Of a stretch of 48,250 bases of DNA, positions 70-7,953 are shown piece after piece. Positions within the stretch are counted from its first letter, which is position 1; every line of letters starts with the position of its first letter. This DNA is from Acidobacteriaceae bacterium (GTDB lineage: Bacteria; Acidobacteriota; Terriglobia; Terriglobales; Acidobacteriaceae): assembly GCA_027323885.1 (NCBI GenBank), contig DAHVZT010000131.1, positions 1 through 48,250 on the forward strand, read 5' to 3'. A program made the translations under genes and the position numbers. Under the pieces are notes generated by a model. The model was not told the DNA's origin. It ran no database searches and saw only the letters and a program-made list of their open reading frames with translations.

Positions 70-98
70 TTGACATCCGCCTCCCGGATTCCTATTCT
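70..98 (+). promoter_or_regulatory. sigma-70-type promoter of the his operon leader
   Basis: A perfect -35 hexamer TTGACA (70-75) is followed after exactly 17 bases by TATTCT (93-98), which matches the -10 consensus at four of six positions. A start seven bases past the -10 would be A105, the first base of the ATG of the His-rich leader ORF. That predicts a leaderless transcript whose first translated product is the attenuator peptide. The promoter call rests on hexamers and spacing only. Confidence 0.6.
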
Positions 99-104
99 CA
101 AAGC

Positions 105-194
105 ATGCGCTCTGAACGCCTGCATCGCCATCCTGTCCATCATCCCCACGCGGCGAACGTATCAGCGGCGCATCCTGAGCAGCTTCCTAAGTAA
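105..194 (+). CDS. hisL: His-rich leader peptide of the histidine operon (HisL-like)
   Basis: This 29-codon ORF runs from ATG 105 to TAA 192-194. Residues 7-15 read HRHPVHHPH, so five of nine codons are histidine (positions 123-149), and a sixth His is at codon 23. It sits between a good promoter and an intrinsic terminator, directly before a complete his operon. This is the classical layout in which a ribosome short of charged His-tRNA stalls and prevents termination. No Shine-Dalgarno precedes ATG 105, and the predicted transcription start is at that same base. An in-frame ATG at 66 would give a 42-residue version but lies upstream of the best promoter. I gave the symbol by analogy of role; the sequence is not homologous to enterobacterial HisL. 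Confidence 0.72.
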   Translation: MRSERLHRHPVHHPHAANVSAAHPEQLPK

Positions 195-230
195 CAAGCC
201 CGTTCAGAAGAGATCCTGGCCCGCTGATGC
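159..230 (+). promoter_or_regulatory. antiterminator pairing of the his attenuator
   Basis: Bases 159-168 (GTATCAGCGG) can pair with 221-230 (CCGCTGATGC) over ten consecutive positions, nine Watson-Crick and one G-U. The second strand is the 5' arm of the terminator hairpin, so the two structures exclude each other. A competing upstream stem is possible: 105-110 (ATGCGC) with 168-173 (GCGCAT), plus 112-115 with 162-165. This would sequester the antiterminator when no ribosome occupies the leader. A ribosome stalled on the His codons (123-149) would break that stem and free 159-168. The pairings are seen directly; the switching model is inferred from known amino-acid attenuators. Confidence 0.65.
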
Positions 231-256
231 CAACGCATCCGCGGGTTTCGTTTTTT
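220..256 (+). terminator. intrinsic terminator (attenuator) before hisI
   Basis: The hairpin has arms 220-230 and 235-245. CCCGC pairs with GCGGG and GATGC pairs with GCATC, with a single T/C mismatch (225/240) between them and a CAAC loop. It is followed by TTTCGTTTTTT (246-256). The terminator lies 30 bases before the hisI ATG and after the His-rich ORF, so its natural role is premature termination of the his mRNA when histidine is plentiful. Confidence 0.8.
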
Positions 257-285
257 AACCCGGCACATGCAACGCGAGGATAACT

Positions 286-672
286 ATGAGCACGCAGACG
301 CAACCTGCAACAGCCATTGACTTTTCCAAGCTGGATGGACTGGCGCCCGGAATCGTACAGGACGCAGCGACCGGCGAAGTCCTTATGGTGGGCTTTCTCA
401 ATGAAGAGAGCTACCGCAAGACCCTCGAATCGGGGTTCGTCACATTTTGGAGCCGTACCCGTAAAAAGCTATGGATGAAAGGTGAAACCAGCGGGAACCG
501 GCTTCGCATCGTAAACGCATCAACGGATTGCGATCGCGACACGCTGCTGTTCCGCGTAGTTGTCGAAGGCGACGGCCTGGTCTGCCATGAAGGCACCGTA
601 AGCTGCTTCACCAGACCCATTCCGATCCACGACGATGCTTCATCCGATCGCGCGGGGAGGGCAACGGCATGA
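286..672 (+). CDS. hisI: phosphoribosyl-AMP cyclohydrolase
   Basis: HisI opens the ring of 1-(5-phosphoribosyl)-AMP in the third step of histidine synthesis, a cytosolic zinc/magnesium enzyme. The 128-residue protein shows family motifs: the [11 protein letters not shown] stretch near residue 33, [18 protein letters not shown] near 55-72, and the metal-binding Cys/His stretch ending CHEGTVSCF near 105. It is the short monofunctional form. The HisE pyrophosphohydrolase domain often fused in other bacteria is absent, and no hisE occurs elsewhere in the window. ATG 286 has a GAGGA ribosome site five bases upstream. It is the first structural gene after the attenuator, and its TGA overlaps the hisG ATG by four bases (ATGA). 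Confidence 0.95.
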
Positions 673-1544
673 GCCAGACACTGCGTATCGGAATTCCCAA
701 GGGCAGCCTGCAGGACGCAACCATCGCGCTCTTTGAACGAGCCGGTTGGCGCATCTTTGCCAATGGACGCTCCTACTTCCCGGGCATTGACGACCCGGAG
801 ATCGAATGCATGCTGGTGCGGGCGCAGGAAATGGCCCGCTACGTCAATCACGGCGCGCTTGACGCGGGTCTTACCGGCCGCGATTGGGTCGTCGAAAGCG
901 GCTTGTCGGTGGAGACGATCGCCAGCCTCACATATTCCAAGCAGAGCCGCCAGAAAGTACGCTGGGTCCTCGCAGTTCCCGAGGATTCCCCCTACCAGCG
1001 CGCGGAAGATCTTGCCGGCAAGATCATCGCGACGGAACTGGTTGAAGCCACCAAAAGGTATTTCGCGGAAAAAAACGTCGCGGTACAGGTGGACTTTAGC
1101 TGGGGCGCTACGGAAGTGAAGCCGCCCGTACTTGCGGACGCCATTGTCGAAGTGACGGAGACCGGCAGTTCCTTGCGCGCGAACCGTTTGCGCATTCTGG
1201 AAACCGTTCTGGAGAGCGAGACCCAACTCATCGCCAACACGAACGCATGGCGCGATCCCTGGAAGAAGAACAAGATTGAAAACATTTCTCTCATGCTGCA
1301 GGGAGCGATTGCGGCGCAGGGACAGGTCGGACTTATGATGAACGTCCGCGCCGTTGACCTGCCAGCCGTGCTCGCCGTGCTGCCCGCGCTCAACTCGCCT
1401 ACCGTCTCCACCTTGAGCGATTCCGAGTGGGTCGCCGTCAACACCATCCTGGAAGAGAGGACCGTTCGCGATGTGATTCCCCGACTCAAGACTGCGCGAG
1501 CTTCCGGAATCGTCGAATATCCGCTGAACAAGATCGTTGTCTGA
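669..1544 (+). CDS. hisG: ATP phosphoribosyltransferase, long form
   Basis: HisG joins ATP and PRPP in the first, committed step of histidine synthesis. At 291 residues it is the long, self-sufficient form carrying a C-terminal ACT-like regulatory domain for feedback by histidine. The short form needing HisZ is about 210 residues. The opening [23 protein letters not shown] and the region around [10 protein letters not shown] (about 66-75) are typical, and the PRPP-binding segment with [11 protein letters not shown] lies near 160-171. The start codon overlaps the hisI stop. With both feedback inhibition and a leader attenuator, flux would be controlled at two levels. Confidence 0.95.
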
Positions 1545-1561
1545 AAGGGGCTGCCGCACGC

Positions 1562-2851
1562 ATGAAGCTGATACGCACCTACGGAAAGAGCTCCAGCGAA
1601 GCGGAGCAACTTCTGCAGCAGATTGAAAACCGCTCCGCCGACGGCACAGCCCGGGTTGAAGCTTCGGTGAAGCGCATAGTCGCTGCGATCCGCAGCCGGG
1701 GAGACGATGCGCTGCGCCAGCATGCCATGCGGCTTGACGGGCTCGCTGCCGATGCCCCGTTTCTGGTAAGCCCGGAAGAAATGAAAGCGGCCTGGGAAGC
1801 CACGCCTTCGGAGCTCCAGAAATCACTCAAGCTCGCGGCGAAAAACATTCGCCGCTTTGCGCAATGGCAGATGCCCACATCATGGACACGAGAGGCGGGG
1901 GGCTTCCAGACCGGGCAACGTTGTTTCCCTCTGCGGTCTGCGGGCTGCTACGTTCCGGGCGGCCGCTACCCGTTGCCATCAACCCTGCTGATGACCACAA
2001 TTCCCGCTCAGGTCGCGGGTGTCGCTCGCATTGTCGTCGTTTCTCCCCGGCCCGCAAAGGAAACGCTGGCGGCGGCACATCTCGCCGGCGTGCACGAGTT
2101 CTATCGCATCGGTGGCGCGCAGGCCATCGCCGCGCTGGCTTATGGTACGGCACACATCCCTCGTGTGGATAAAATTGTCGGCCCTGGAAATCTCTATGTC
2201 ACCACGGCAAAGAAACTCGTCGCCTTCGACTGCGGGGTCGATATGTTAGCCGGGCCGACCGAGATTGTCATTGCAAGCGAAAATGGAAACCCGGAGTGGA
2301 TTGCAGCCGATCTGGTTGCACAGTCGGAGCATGATCCGGAAGCTCTTGCCATCCTGGTCACGAGCAACCAGGCGCTGGCGAAGGCGGTTTCCCAACAACT
2401 TGATGCTCAGTCTTCTTCAAGCCGAATTGCGAAGCAAGCGCTCGATAGCAACGGCGTCATTTTTGTGACTGAAAATCCGATGCAAACCACCGTTGTAACC
2501 AACCGAATCGCTCCTGAACATTTGACCATCGATGGCGAGCGCGACCTCTCCTGGGTGGAACACGCAGGCTCGCTTTTTGTTGGCACGCAAACCCCACAAA
2601 GCATGGGCGATTACGTCTCCGGGCCGAACCATGTGCTGCCCACAGGCCGCCAAGCACGGACTCGCGGCGGTCTGAGCGTGCTGGATTTTCTTCGCATCGT
2701 GACAACGCAGCAATATGATGGTGCCGGACTTGCCCAACTCGGCCCCCATGCAGCCCGGCTGGCGGAGGCGGAGGGACTGACCGCCCACGCGGCTTCTGTG
2801 CGCATCCGCGCCGCTAAATCTGGCGCGCGGACGCAAGGAAAGGTGGACTGA
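1562..2851 (+). CDS. hisD: histidinol dehydrogenase
   Basis: HisD performs the last two oxidations, from histidinol through histidinal to histidine, using two NAD+ and a zinc ion. From ATG 1562 the protein has 429 residues, the usual family length. The open frame continues 45 codons upstream into hisG, but AAAGGGG (1544-1550) precedes ATG 1562. Recognisable blocks are YVPGGRYPLPSTLLMTTIPA, the Gly-rich GPGNLYVTTAKK, DMLAGPTEIVI, the QSEHDPEA stretch that carries catalytic and zinc residues, and NRIAPEHLTI. It starts 17 bases after the hisG stop and ends four bases before hisC. Confidence 0.95.
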   Translation: MKLIRTYGKSSSEAEQLLQQIENRSADGTARVEASVKRIVAAIRSRGDDALRQHAMRLDGLAADAPFLVSPEEMKAAWEATPSELQKSLKLAAKNIRRFAQWQMPTSWTREAGGFQTGQRCFPLRSAGCYVPGGRYPLPSTLLMTTIPAQVAGVARIVVVSPRPAKETLAAAHLAGVHEFYRIGGAQAIAALAYGTAHIPRVDKIVGPGNLYVTTAKKLVAFDCGVDMLAGPTEIVIASENGNPEWIAADLVAQSEHDPEALAILVTSNQALAKAVSQQLDAQSSSSRIAKQALDSNGVIFVTENPMQTTVVTNRIAPEHLTIDGERDLSWVEHAGSLFVGTQTPQSMGDYVSGPNHVLPTGRQARTRGGLSVLDFLRIVTTQQYDGAGLAQLGPHAARLAEAEGLTAHAASVRIRAAKSGARTQGKVD

Positions 2852-2855
2852 GCCG

Positions 2856-3950
2856 ATGAGTTCCACGCCGGCATTGAGCAAATTGCGCCCCCGCATCGCA
2901 GTCGAGCGCATGCATGAGTATCATCCCCCGCTGGCGGGACGCGACGGCTTGCGCCTCGATTTCAACGAGAACACTTTGGCTCCTTCGCCTCGCGTGCAAA
3001 CAGTTCTGCAGCGAATCTCCTCAGCCAGCCTCACCAAATATCCGGAGCGCGAGCATGTCGAGCGCATTGCAGCCAGACATTTCGGCCTTGAGCCGGAATC
3101 AGTCCTGCTGACCAACGGTGTGGATGAAGCGATTCATCTGATCTGTGAAACGTACCTGGAGCCGCACCATGAAGTCGTCATCGTCACGCCGACATTCTCC
3201 ATGTATGCACTCTACGCCGAAGCCACAGGCGCGACCGTACGCGCGGTCCAGGCGGATGCGACGCTGCAATTCCCGCGCGAGCGCTTGCAGCAGTCCATCG
3301 GGCCGGAAACCAGACTGATTATGCTCGCCTCCCCCAACAACCCGACCGGCGCGGTGATCGAACCCGGCTTTCTGCTGGAGCTGGCAGCGGCCAATCCTCA
3401 AGCAGCTCTTCTGGTTGACGAGGCCTATTACCACTTCCATGGTGAGTCTGTTTTGAGCAAAACTTCCACAGTCGAAAACCTGTTAGTGGCGCGTACGTTT
3501 TCCAAAGCTTATGGCTTGGCCGGGCTCCGCATCGGTCTTCTGGCTGGCCACCCGGATGCGATGCGGTTTGTACGCAAGGTAAGTTCCCCTTACAACGTGA
3601 ACTCCATTGCCCTGGAGTGTCTGCCAGAAGCCTTGGCGGACGAGGAATACACCGCCTGGTACGCGGACCAGGTGCAGCAGAGCCGGTTGATGCTCGAGCA
3701 AAAACTGCAGAAGCTTAAGGTTCAGTACTGGCCGACCCACGCAAATTTCATCCTGATCAGGATTGGGCCTGAGCACGCGCGATTTGTCCAGGCCATGCGG
3801 CGCCAGGGCGTTCTGGTTCGCGATCGCAGTCAGGACCCAGGCTGCGAAGGATGCGTTCGCATAACGCTGGGACCTGTGGAACATACCGCATTGGGAATCG
3901 CTGCGTTGGAGAACACTATCAAGGAGATGCAATGGCAGCCAGGAAGCTAA
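2856..3950 (+). CDS. hisC: histidinol-phosphate aminotransferase
   Basis: This PLP enzyme transaminates imidazole-acetol phosphate to histidinol phosphate. The 364-residue protein starts the recognisable domain with [12 protein letters not shown], has the [10 protein letters not shown] block near residue 155 and the DEAYY motif near 189, and the PLP lysine lies in [15 protein letters not shown] near 215. The last 19 bases overlap hisB, so the two are probably translationally coupled. A second aminotransferase at the 3' end of the operon is of a different subfamily, and this one is clearly HisC by context and sequence. Confidence 0.94.
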
Positions 3951-4555
3951 GCTCCACACCTTCGAACGGCCGCGTGGCCATCGTCAAGCGGCACACAACA
4001 GAGACGCAAATTGACCTTCGCCTCACGATCGATGGCGAGGGTTCCTATGACGTGCGGACCGGCATCCGGTTTTTCGATCACATGCTGGAATTGTTCGCCC
4101 GTCACGGCGGCTTTGATCTGGCGCTGCAATGTCAGGGCGATCTCGATGTGGACCAGCATCACACGGTAGAAGACATCGGCATCGCGCTTGGCGAGGCATT
4201 CCGGCAGGCTTTGGGAGACAAGAAAGGCATTCTTCGCGCAGGATATTTCCTGATGCCCATGGATGAAACTCTTGCCGCGGCAGCGGTCGATCTGAGTGGC
4301 CGCGCGTCGTGCGTCATCGACACCAAAGTCCGGGTCAGGATCGTAGGCGATCTGCAGACCGAATTGCTTCCTGATTTCTTCGATGGCTTTGCCCGGGGAG
4401 CACAAGCGAATGTTCACCTGAAAGTACTGTACGGACGCTCCAATCATCACAAGGTTGAAGCGATCTTCAAGGCTTTCGCCCGTGCCTTGCGCTTCGCCTG
4501 TGCGCGCGACGAGAGGTTGCGATCGATGTTGCCCAGCACGAAAGGGCTGATGTAA
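3932..4555 (+). CDS. hisB: imidazoleglycerol-phosphate dehydratase
   Basis: HisB removes water from imidazole glycerol phosphate. It is the monofunctional dehydratase (207 residues), without the histidinol-phosphatase domain found in enterobacteria. Signature metal-binding repeats are visible: [35 protein letters not shown] and [22 protein letters not shown] 3932 lies inside hisC and has AAGGAG (3921-3926) five bases upstream. An upstream in-frame start at 3851 would lie deep inside hisC and adds residues foreign to the family. The TAA is immediately followed by the hisH ATG. Confidence 0.94.
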
Positions 4556-5179
4556 ATGAGCGATTCAATCACTGGTGGCAAAACCGTCGTTATCGACTAT
4601 CAAACCGGCAACCTGAATTCCGTATGCAAAGCTCTGCGCGCCGTGGGAGCGGACGTTTCCATCGCGACAACTCCCGAGGGCTTACGCAACGCGGCTCGCA
4701 TCGTACTTCCCGGTGTAGGGCATTTCTCCTCAACCGGATGCTTACAAGACTCTGGCGTGGCGGATGCGCTTCGCGAACAGGTGGCCGGTGGTACTCCGTT
4801 CCTGGGTATATGCGTAGGCCTGCAGTGGCTGTTCGGCGGCAGCACAGAGGCCCCCGGTGTTTCTGGCCTCGGCGTTTTCTCTGAAACCTGCGAGCGTTTC
4901 CCTTCCAACGTGAAATCTCCTCATGTAGGGTGGAACGCTCTGGAACGCGTAGGAGAATCGCGTCTGCTCGACGGTCTTGAAGATTCTCCCTACGTCTACT
5001 TCACCCACTCCTATCGCGCTCCACGCGTATCTGCAACCACGGCGGTTACACATTACGGAGGAGAGTTCACCGCCATCGTCGAGCGCGAAAACTGGATGGC
5101 CGTGCAGTTCCACCCCGAAAAATCCGGCGAGGCCGGCCTGACCATTCTGGAAAATTTCCTTAGGGTCTCCGCATGCTGA
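4556..5179 (+). CDS. hisH: imidazole glycerol phosphate synthase, glutaminase subunit
   Basis: HisH hydrolyses glutamine and channels ammonia to HisF. The 207-residue protein is a class I glutamine amidotransferase. Its nucleophile is Cys86 in FLGICVGLQ, the His/Glu pair is in QFHPEKSG (H186, E188), and the oxyanion region is LPGVGHFSS. It starts one base after the hisB stop and overlaps hisF by seven bases, which fits production of the two synthase subunits in equal amounts. Confidence 0.94.
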
Positions 5180-5943
5180 CGCGCCGCATTATTGCCTGCC
5201 TGGACGTCGCCGCAGGACGCGTGGTAAAAGGCATTCAATTTGTCGACCTGATTGACGCCGGAGATCCCGCGGCGCTCGCCATCCGGCACGCTCAGGGCGG
5301 CGCAGACGAGATCGTCTTCCTGGACATTACCGCGACGCATGAAAAACGGTCGTTGTTGCTCGATGCGGTCCGGCGCGCTGCCGAGCGGATCTTTGTTCCG
5401 CTTACGGTTGGCGGCGGGATCCGCACGCTGGACGATGCGCTGCGAGTCTTCGATGCCGGGGCGGACAAGGTCAGCATCAACTCCGCGGCCCTGCGGCGTC
5501 CGGAGCTCATTACAGAAATCGGTTCTCGATTCGGAGCGCAGGCTGTCGTGGTCGCTATCGATGCGCGACGCAGCGCGGACGGCCCGGAAAAAGCGGAAGT
5601 GTACCTTAACGGCGGACGTTTGCCAGCCGGGGTTGGAGTCCTTGCCTGGGCGCGGGAAGCGGAATCACGCGGCGCCGGGGAGATCCTGCTGACGTCCATG
5701 GATTCTGACGGAACGCGCAGCGGCTTCGATTGCGAACTGACTGGAGCTGTCAGCGACGCAGTCCAGATTCCCGTCATCGCCTCGGGCGGTGCAGGAACTG
5801 TGCAGCACTTTGCGGACGTTTTTACCGCCGGACGCGCGGACGCAGCCCTGGCCGCCAGCATTTTTCACTGCGGCGTTTCGGACGCCCGCACGCTAAAGCA
5901 CGAGCTTGCGCAGCTTGGCCTGCCTATGCGGCTGCCTTGCTAG
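5173..5943 (+). CDS. hisF: imidazole glycerol phosphate synthase, cyclase subunit
   Basis: HisF is the (beta/alpha)8-barrel partner of HisH that forms imidazole glycerol phosphate and AICAR from PRFAR. The 256 residues match family length. The first catalytic Asp is in [17 protein letters not shown] (Asp11), the second in VAIDARR, and the phosphate-binding motifs [13 protein letters not shown] and [13 protein letters not shown] are intact. In many operons hisA precedes hisF; here hisF comes directly after hisH and hisA follows it. Confidence 0.94.
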
Positions 5944-5999
5944 GCTAATGCGGGATAATAAGAGCTGAGTGACCAATCGAGAAAAAAGCCGGTGACGCC

Positions 6000-6725
6000 A
6001 TGCTGATTCCTTCGATCGACCTGATGGGCGGCCGCGTCGTGCAACTCGTGCAGGGCGAAAAACTCGCCCTCGGGTTCGATGATCTTGAGTACTGGATCGA
6101 TCGCTTCAAGGCCTACCCCCTGGTGCAACTGATCGACCTGGATGCGGCGAAACGGCAAGGAAACAACCGTCCGCTGCTGGAGCAAATTCTGCGACGGCTT
6201 CCCTGCCAGGTCGGGGGCGGGATACATCGCGTTGAGGATGCACGCGAGCTGCTGGCCGCGGGTGCACGCCGGGTAATTTTCGGCTCGGCGCTCTTTGCGC
6301 CGCCCGAGCACTCGCCCGCAGCCCCGCTGCAAGCGCCTGCGTTGAATCCCAAGACATGGATTCGCCACGATTTCGCGGAACAGCTTGCCGAATCCTTTGG
6401 CACGGATTGCCTCGTTTTCAGCGTGGATACCAAGCAGAATCGCGTGGCTGTGCGCGGCTGGCAAGAACGGATCGCGCTCCGGCCTGAGGACGCCATCGCC
6501 GGCCTGGAACCCTTCTGCGGCGCATTTCTCTATACAAATGTCGATACAGAGGGTACTATGCAAGGTTTCCCGATGGAGGTCGCGCGCAGCTTGCGCCGGC
6601 TCACCAGTCGGCAGCTGATCGTGGCGGGCGGTATTCGCCAGCAGTCGGAAATCGATGAACTAGACGCCATCCATGTCGATGCGGTTGCCGGCATGGCGAT
6701 CTACTCGGGTGCGATGCAGGCGTAA
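6000..6725 (+). CDS. hisA: phosphoribosylformimino-AICAR ribotide isomerase, divergent HisA
   Basis: HisA catalyses the Amadori rearrangement of ProFAR to PRFAR and is structurally related to HisF. The N-terminal Asp of LIPSIDLMGGRVVQL and a central Asp in VFSVDTK correspond to the catalytic pair, and phosphate-binding GGG and VAGGI blocks are present. It is unusual in three ways. About 20 Pro/Ala-rich residues are inserted after IFGSALF (near 100). The usual TDI-RDGT block reads TNVDTEGT. The C-terminus stops soon after the last strand (241 residues). A 56-base gap separates it from hisF; GATAAT at 5954-5959 could be an internal -10 but has no good -35. The operon position supports HisA. Confidence 0.85.
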   Translation: MLIPSIDLMGGRVVQLVQGEKLALGFDDLEYWIDRFKAYPLVQLIDLDAAKRQGNNRPLLEQILRRLPCQVGGGIHRVEDARELLAAGARRVIFGSALFAPPEHSPAAPLQAPALNPKTWIRHDFAEQLAESFGTDCLVFSVDTKQNRVAVRGWQERIALRPEDAIAGLEPFCGAFLYTNVDTEGTMQGFPMEVARSLRRLTSRQLIVAGGIRQQSEIDELDAIHVDAVAGMAIYSGAMQA

Positions 6726-6786: not shown

Positions 6787-7953
6787 ATGAAGATCTCCGC
6801 GCTACGCGTATCGAAAAGGCTGGACGAAGTTCATTTTTCCGACATCGTGCAGGTGCGGAACAAAGTGATGGCGCTCCGGGCAGCGGGAGAAGCGGTACAC
6901 GGCTTTCATGGAGGTGAACCCTTCTTCCCCACTCCCCTGCCGGTAAAGTACGGCATCATCCAGGCACTCATTGAGAACAAAACGCGCTATGCCCCTTCTT
7001 CCGGCATGGAGCCGCTTCGAGAGGCCATTGCGCACAAGTTGCGGACGTTCAATGGAATGAAGGTCACCGCCGATCAGGTTTTACTGACCGTGGGCGGCTC
7101 TCATGCGCTGTATGCAGCGTTCCAGTGCGTCCTCGACCCCGGCGATGACGTGCTCCTGTTCTCGCCGTACTGGACGCCGATCAGGGAGTTGATTACGGGC
7201 GCTCAGGGACGGCCGCTGCTGGTGCCCACCGTCAGCGCGATCAGCCATGGCATCACAGCGTCGCTGGAACGCTACAGCACTCCGCAAACCCGGGCCATCT
7301 ACTACAACACGCCACAGAATCCGAACGGGATTGTCTTTACGCGGCAACACGCGGAAGAAGTGGCCGCCTTCGCCAGAAAACGCGACCTGGTCGTGATCGC
7401 CGATGAAGCCTACGAAGACATCGTCTATGAAGGCGAACATTTTTCCATCGCGACCCTGCCCGGCATGAGGGAACGTACCCTGACGACCTATACGCTTTCA
7501 AAGTCTTTCAGCATGACAGGCCTGCGGGTTGGCTACGTCGTGGCGGAGGAGCCGTGGATGAGTGGCCTGCGAAAAATCATCCTTTACTCGACCAATGGCG
7601 TGTCCACCCCCACGCAATGGGGGGCGCTGGAAGCCATGCGAATGCCTCGCGAATTGCTCCTCGGAAGGCGTGAAGAATACCGCCAGAGACGTGACGTACT
7701 GGTGCAGGCGTTGAATGAGGCCGGTCTGGAATGCACCCCACCCGCCGGAGCCTTTTACGTGTTCCCAAAGTGCGGGCGAATCCATAAGAACAGCCGAAAG
7801 GCAGCGGAAATCCTGCTCGACCGGGCGCGCATCGCCACAGTTCCCGGCGTTGCGTTTGGCGCTCAGGGAGAGGGGCATCTGCGCTTCAGCTACAGCTTAT
7901 CCATGCAGATGATTGAAGCTGGGATCGACGCGCTGAAAAAATTCCAGGCTTAA
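6787..7953 (+). CDS. class I/II PLP-dependent aminotransferase (aspartate aminotransferase-like)
   Basis: A 388-residue fold-type I aminotransferase. It has the substrate-site GGEPFF stretch near residue 42, YNTPQNPNGIV near 176, the PLP-contacting ADEAYEDIVYEG near 208, and the Schiff-base lysine in YTLSKSFSMTGLRVGY near 240. It resembles aspartate/aromatic aminotransferases of the type often annotated only as class I/II, and I cannot assign a substrate. It starts 61 bases after hisA on the same strand, so it may be read from the his transcript, but it is not known to be needed for histidine synthesis because hisC is present. Confidence 0.85.
   Translation: MKISALRVSKRLDEVHFSDIVQVRNKVMALRAAGEAVHGFHGGEPFFPTPLPVKYGIIQALIENKTRYAPSSGMEPLREAIAHKLRTFNGMKVTADQVLLTVGGSHALYAAFQCVLDPGDDVLLFSPYWTPIRELITGAQGRPLLVPTVSAISHGITASLERYSTPQTRAIYYNTPQNPNGIVFTRQHAEEVAAFARKRDLVVIADEAYEDIVYEGEHFSIATLPGMRERTLTTYTLSKSFSMTGLRVGYVVAEEPWMSGLRKIILYSTNGVSTPTQWGALEAMRMPRELLLGRREEYRQRRDVLVQALNEAGLECTPPAGAFYVFPKCGRIHKNSRKAAEILLDRARIATVPGVAFGAQGEGHLRFSYSLSMQMIEAGIDALKKFQA

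Follow-up and report, generated by a model that had tools for sequence, protein, structure and literature searches.

The DNA analysed here (the window, 48,250 nucleotides in full) is the start of a contig in a fragmented genome of 2.26 Mb, split into 152 contigs and 73.6% complete, whose closest named matches were Acidobacteriaceae and other Acidobacteria. Annotation with NCBIfam models revealed a hisIGDCBHFA operon on the forward strand, directly behind the putative attenuator described below, with hisI as its first gene and an aminotransferase gene after hisA. The first structural gene, hisI, occupies positions 286–672 (NF000768, 128.7 bits for a cut-off of 126), and the part of the operon after it (669–6725) comprises hisG (669–1544), hisD (about 1562–2851), hisC (2856–3950), hisB (about 3932–4555), hisH (4556–5179), hisF (5173–5943), and hisA (6000–6725), with the starts of hisD and hisB placed from the reading frame. 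Two of these genes scored below their cut-offs, hisC by 0.25 bits and hisA by 82 bits, yet in both cases the top-scoring models were those of hisC and hisA. The product of the latter matched TIGR00007 along two separate stretches (147.1 bits, cut-off 228.95), and it is apparently a divergent HisA with extra residues between them. Further downstream, positions 6787–7953 encode a PLP-dependent aminotransferase in the same direction as hisA (best NCBIfam model asp_aminotase_Arch, below cut-off), a gene that may be a member of the his operon.

A sequence-only reading of the region preceding hisI had taken it for a ribosome-mediated his attenuator, and our analysis supports that this device is real and was mostly rightly read, with its parts seen in the window and conserved in relatives. 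The region, also on the forward strand, begins with a sigma70-type promoter, TTGACA-N17-TATTCT (70–98, with the boxes at 70–75 and 93–98), the single promoter-like match within positions 1–1500, where shuffled sequences predict 0.4. After a gap of 6 nt from the -10 box, an ORF of 29 codons plus the stop (105–194, with ATG at 105 and TAA at 192–194) encodes the His-rich leader peptide MRSERLHRHPVHHPHAANVSAAHPEQLPK, which includes the presumptive regulatory His codons of the run HRHPVHHPH (123–149), read directly from the sequence as that reading had it. The 5′ strand of an antiterminator (segment 2, 159–168) lies within this ORF and forms ten pairs, one of them G-U, with segment 3 (221–230), which can pair alternatively with segment 4 in an intrinsic terminator (220–256). 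The latter consists of a stem at 220–245, seen in front of hisI, and a T-run, TTTCGTTTTTT (246–256). A simple terminator scan did not flag 220–245, probably because of an internal mismatch in the hairpin. The RNA from 95 to 262 folded with −51.8 kcal/mol (z −2.65; 2 of 200 shuffles equally good), and the predicted fold includes the terminator and a 5′ stem. The region presents sequence features of a ribosome-mediated attenuator: the genes for making an amino acid are preceded by a short ORF enriched in codons for that same amino acid, a predicted intrinsic terminator separates this ORF from the first gene, and the pairing of a mutually exclusive antiterminator is conserved.

The hisI gene of the window was used as query to gather 110 loci (80 named ones and 30 from the same order, the window's own included), which are the best hisI matches with duplicates included and represent a biased draw. 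A His-dense leader, with at least five His per ten codons, preceded hisI in 109 of these 110 loci, the window among them, as the proposal of a his attenuator anticipated for related genomes. The densest ten codons of these 109 leaders contained 5 to 8 His. In the lone exception, L105, the contig begins inside the leader, and this locus was excluded from all later leader counts. The loci with a leader include those of the cultured relatives Terriglobus roseus (L092) and Silvibacterium bohemicum (L079). The set yielded 91 distinct leaders of 22 to 30 codons, with the start as chosen here, and the 77 leaders that were aligned carried a median of 8 His (range 5–10).

Alignment A1 was made with MAFFT from these 77 leaders, less than 92% identical to each other, a rule by which 14 of the 91 distinct leaders were dropped. 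When RNAalifold was run on the whole of A1 with no structure supplied, it proposed the antiterminator and nothing else. In this helix, 87.8% of 919 cells were paired, compared with 31.5–50.0% in controls in which the strands were slid, two-sided changes appeared in 7 of 12 pairs, and all five measures beat at least 495 of 500 column shuffles. The pair counts of the same alignment supported segment 3 and the terminator, the latter paired in 89.1% of 908 cells (slid controls, 29.8–49.5%), with its three central pairs present throughout the 77 rows and a single cell among them U-G. Two-sided changes were found in 5 of 12 terminator pairs, and three covariation measures beat all column shuffles, while two measures were no better than the shuffles (258 of 500 for the number of two-sided pairs and 494 of 500 for that of pair types). 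As an example of the variation, columns 67/177 showed C-G in 31 leaders, U-A in 28, and U-G in 11, although paired cells of this kind do not equal independent events. A tree-based test on the hisI-hisG tree, counting independent compensatory changes, was not significant, the 7 column pairs read out of 15 having 1–6 supported pairs, too few for a test; on that tree, columns 67/177 gave 1.1 of 3 changes toward pairing and none opposed, and for columns 69/175, with 2 supported pairs, the values were 0.0 toward pairing and 0.1 away from it. Compensatory changes had been named beforehand as a check on the proposal, and both the 2:3 and 3:4 helices were indeed paired far above the slid controls, with two-sided changes. 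The conclusions on the terminator are taken from A1, and not from a per-row terminator finder, which returned clearly wrong or partial hairpins in several rows (L006, L077, L024, L045, and L053 among them).

The same alignment argued against one element of the sequence-only reading, a competing 5′ stem (105–118 with 158–173) regarded there as part of the device. This stem, which can hold the antiterminator strand, has 14 of 14 positions paired in the window, and a mean of 4.3 of 14 over the 77 leaders; six close relatives keep 4–8 of the 14 pairs, three of these rows beginning at an inner ATG and losing pairs for that reason. It therefore appears to be specific to this genome, where it loses to the antiterminator on RNA ending upstream of segment 4 and could hold segment 2 after the departure of the ribosome. 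The leaders of relatives offer segment 2 alternative partners among their upstream bases, one arrangement being paired in 83.6% of cells; the 2:3 duplex was stronger than such pairing in 67 of 77 leaders, and RNAalifold found no consensus structure in the leader part alone. Two minor hairpins were also considered. A small one between the last His codon and segment 2 (columns 52–56 with 62–66) was well paired in relatives (92.7%) and has just three pairs in the window. The other one (175–207) contains the stop codon of the leader and lies between segments 2 and 3; it was rejected as a conserved part and kept as a weak feature, with 61.1% of cells paired against 61.2% for a slide of −1, and a mean folding z of −0.79.

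The distribution of the element was analysed with a model, R1, derived from the Acidobacteriaceae leader alignment and run on 297 genomes of the phylum with E-values up to 0.01, of which 71 showed matches. Within the Acidobacteriaceae of this sample, a better draw than the hisI loci, R1 found the element in 29 of 31 genomes; the other two, G035 and G043, lacked hisG and hisI too at the thresholds used, and these near-complete genomes possibly belong to histidine auxotrophs. A second sampled family of the order presented leaders at 10 of 10 hisG loci, with 2 of its 12 genomes lacking hisG. Among 20 of the best distant R1 matches that were examined, 14 contained His-rich ORFs (13 preceding hisI-hisG-hisD and one preceding hisG-hisC), one a Trp-rich ORF, and five no such run.

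Independently of R1, a survey anchored on hisG was carried out outside the order, looking for at least four His per ten codons (locus L177, of 174 bases, was dropped). Of the 69 loci surveyed, 29 had a short His-rich ORF in front of hisG; the reverse strand gave 2 of 69 and shuffled sequences gave 3 of 345, rates by which one or two of the 29 loci may be due to chance. Survey and model covered 83 of the 160 hisG-bearing genomes outside Acidobacteriaceae (69 by the hisG survey and 14 chosen by R1), and outside the order they revealed 43 leader loci in 13 further acidobacterial families: f3, f16, f22 (14 of 14 loci), f25, f26, f29 (1 of 4), f45, f47, f59, and f63 from the survey, and f34, f68, and f76 among the R1 matches. 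The least sure of these families is f26, in which no his gene lies directly downstream. For another 20 families (f5, f10, f11, f12, f13, f21, f24, f33, f35, f40, f51, f54, f55, f56, f61, f62, f70, f71, f73, and f84; 1–4 loci each), no leader was detected in the bases before hisG, which need not be the first gene. In two loci of f22, L162 and L202, the His-rich leader was located about 1.3–1.5 kb upstream of the hisG match, probably with another gene in between; that of L162 may be hisZ-like, to judge from an impression of its N-terminus.

Terminator-like hairpins followed all 53 leaders found outside Acidobacteriaceae, under lenient criteria and with no control. The complementarity between leader and terminator arm had a mean z of 1.48 over shuffles and exceeded 1.5 in 22 of the 53. 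The highest values came from f3 and from some loci of f2 and f47, those of f16 and f25 were mixed, and most f22 loci and the two of f26 were near zero, a point against the attenuator reading. Judged by its sequence features, the device is shared by many acidobacterial families, which goes beyond what had been claimed for it, and this distribution could go back either to a single ancient origin followed by losses or to more than one origin.

On the start of the leader, the sequence-only reading was right about the promoter and the ORF, and overlooked that the ORF looks leaderless. A TAnnnT box about 10–12 bp upstream of the start codon marks leaderless genes, according to PMC3160421, and in the window such a box begins 12 nt upstream of the ATG, with no Shine-Dalgarno (SD) sequence. 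A TTGACA-like box with a TAnnnT just upstream of the ATG was present in all 91 distinct leaders, TTGACA being perfect in 88. With the same scan, such a pair turned up in 3 of 87 control windows located further upstream, in 47 of 910 shuffles, and in 4 of the 91 stretches preceding the hisI match. The gap from the -10 box to the ATG was 6–11 nt in 81 of the 91, and SD-like 4-mers preceded 8 of 91 leader ATGs compared with 53 of 82 assignable hisI starts. Among the 53 leaders from other families, looser criteria detected the promoter in 33, of which 27 had a gap of 8–9 nt, and an SD-like sequence lay upstream of four. Because the promoter gap is short and SD-like sequences are rare, a near-zero 5′ UTR is predicted, likely of roughly 0–4 nt, and the leader ORF is probably leaderless. 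The alternative is that the ORF has an ordinary, longer 5′ UTR made from another promoter, the TTGACA/TAnnnT pair not being the start, in which case attenuation would hold and the leader would not be leaderless. In its favour, the start used here is a predicted one, 10 of 91 leaders have gaps beyond 6–11 nt, and 20 of 53 leaders outside the family show no such promoter even by loose criteria; f22, f2, and f25 account for 18 of these 20. Against it stand the positioned promoter of every family leader and its scarcity in the control windows, as well as the narrow gap and near lack of SD-like sequences in the distant leaders; we consider this alternative unlikely, and favour the leaderless start.

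Taken together, these data make it very probable that the his operon is under the control of a ribosome-mediated transcription attenuator. From the observed parts, their conservation, and their mutually exclusive helices, we infer a switch in which transcription would begin at the leader ATG or a few nt from it, so that the ribosome would load on the extreme 5′ end of the nascent RNA without an SD site. When charged tRNA-His is scarce, the ribosome would stall on the His codons and leave free segment 2, located just downstream; the free segment 2 would then pair with the emerging segment 3, no terminator would form, and the polymerase would enter hisIGDCBHFA. When His-tRNA is plentiful, segment 2 would be covered by the ribosome or held by upstream leader RNA, segment 3 would pair with segment 4, and transcription would end near 256.

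This scheme was modelled by blocking a ribosome footprint at each codon of the 77 leaders and folding the remaining RNA. With RNA ending before segment 4 and the A-site at His codons 1–5, the mean probability of the antiterminator was 0.93–0.95; it dropped through codons 14–15 and reached 0.00–0.07 at codons 16–24, where the ribosome covers segment 2. In the window, the change occurred between codons 16 (0.97) and 17 (0.04). On the same RNA ending before segment 4, the antiterminator was also predicted with the ribosome on codons 2–5 (0.91–0.93); without any ribosome its mean probability was 0.73 (0.99 in the window), and a ribosome placed at the stop codon gave a mean of 0.75 (0.98 in the window). 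Folding thus separates positions before segment 2 from those on it, and does not single out the His codons, so these models do not account cleanly for a leader whose ribosome has been released or that is not translated. At equilibrium, the full-length RNA formed the terminator in 77 of 77 leaders with no ribosome; when a ribosome occupied the first five His codons, the terminator still prevailed in 70 of 77 and the antiterminator in 7. Given this dominance of the terminator, the switch must work kinetically, and the model would need the right timing, with the advancing ribosome on segment 2 when segment 3 emerges.

Two other readings of the region were weighed. Control could be mainly Rho-dependent, with the C-rich, G-poor His run acting as a Rho loading site when untranslated; His codons do give a C-rich tract, as follows from the sequence and general knowledge, and possible Rho-binding sites are discussed, as a weak prediction, for terminator-less actinobacterial cys leaders in PMC1262725. 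Rho requires neither a GC-rich hairpin with a T-run nor a competing helix, and both are present across the 77 aligned leaders, which makes this option very improbable. Slightly less credible still is that the His-rich ORF encodes a functional small peptide, for instance a metal-binding one, and that the terminator serves that small gene alone. The Acidobacteriaceae peptide is in fact conserved outside the His run too (VSAD, MPAD, and similar motifs); this conserved tail, however, is encoded by segment 2, whose nucleotides are accounted for by the pairing with segment 3, and between families the peptide varies freely while the His run stays.

The his leader of Escherichia coli is the type case of classical attenuation, and a survey of attenuators in Proteobacteria is said to date from 2004. 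The Rfam model of the E. coli hisL leader, RF00514 (His_leader), represents a layout like that of the window, with a His-run leader peptide, a terminator, and alternative hairpins directly before the his operon. Model R1 in turn aligned to E. coli hisL from the ATG through the terminator region (46.3 bits, E 1.3e-9), so that a match to R1 shows a similar layout and not descent, and R1 was rejected as a proof of homology. RF00514 itself gave no match in positions 1–400 of the window with E-values up to 10 (its cut-off of 49 bits was not reached), nor in 20 related loci at its gathering score, whereas it recovered E. coli hisL at 131.6 bits as a positive control. The window differs from hisL in having hisI and not hisG as first gene, an interrupted His run, the antiterminator strand inside the leader ORF, and no SD-like site. 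More generally, no Rfam 15 family, T-box included, was found at gathering thresholds in the whole window or in the 20 related loci. A T-box or a metabolite riboswitch instead of a ribosome-sensing attenuator was also weighed, as there are T-box-regulated his operons in Lactococcus lactis and Corynebacterium glutamicum (PMC9413887); with no such Rfam match and a His-rich ORF of kept length as the conserved element, we give it hardly any credence.

Leader-peptide attenuators with His codons have been predicted in Firmicutes by sequence comparison, for his operons of the Bacillus cereus group, Peptostreptococcaceae, and Erysipelotrichales, there also with terminator and antiterminator (PMC9413887), and for hisS/hisZ in bacilli (PMC2965389); these resemble the ribosome-mediated attenuator described here and belong to another phylum. 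The main text of PMC9413887 does not mention Acidobacteria, and for the attenuators predicted in this phylum PMC2965389 gives almost none with an associated function. Actinobacterial His leaders are the subject of a conference paper cited in PMC4833913, which also provides bulk counts of leader genes near structural genes in Acidobacteria and, as far as its accessible text goes, names no his leader among them. The main texts of two extensive surveys of novel bacterial RNAs (PMC11109978 and PMC8632094) lack the terms acidobacter, histidine, and hisG. A leaderless attenuator has a precedent in trpL (rnTrpL/peTrpL) of Sinorhizobium meliloti, an alphaproteobacterium, where the attenuated RNA starts with the ATG of the leader ORF (PMC7298713); the start is known there and predicted here, and the codons are Trp rather than His. 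No earlier description of an acidobacterial his attenuator was found in the open-access literature, with most subscription papers beyond reach and a prior mention being possible, in agreement with the impression of the sequence-only reading that the device is little described in this phylum. The mechanism would be classical and ordinary, the phylum new as far as searched, and the start, predicted to be leaderless, unusual.

A broader interpretation is that Acidobacteriota own an old his attenuator that was formerly present across the phylum and has disappeared from many of its families. Its leaderless ORF would be part of the mechanism and, by letting ribosomes load on the 5′ end of the nascent RNA, would set the leading ribosome and the polymerase in step from the first nucleotides without an SD sequence or a pausing hairpin; we offer it tentatively, and would at present lean slightly against it. 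The narrower results assign a regulatory mechanism to a common and poorly studied soil phylum, and extend His-sensing attenuation past the phyla for which reports were found. They also provide over a hundred natural leaders (91 distinct in the family and 53 outside it) for the study of attenuation seemingly without a ribosome-binding site, and point to an RNA family overlooked by current models, as seen with Rfam 15 on the window and the 20 related loci.

Finally, leaders of other amino acid operons were searched for in relatives from the order, within the first 1,500 bases of each locus, a scan that would miss a leader placed before another first operon gene. Upstream of trpE (24 loci), Trp-rich leaders did not recur, and none rich in Leu/Ile/Val was found in front of leuA (24 loci) or ilvB homologues (24 loci). 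Scattered Trp pairs were present before trpE, together with one short ORF common to two loci of one genus. In another acidobacterial class, locus L126 (genome G377) contains at about positions 627–792 a Trp-rich leader-like ORF (AWYWW) followed by a terminator, which is a candidate trp attenuator by its sequence; the genes after it are, as we take them to be from recognition by eye, those of a DAHP synthase and trpE.
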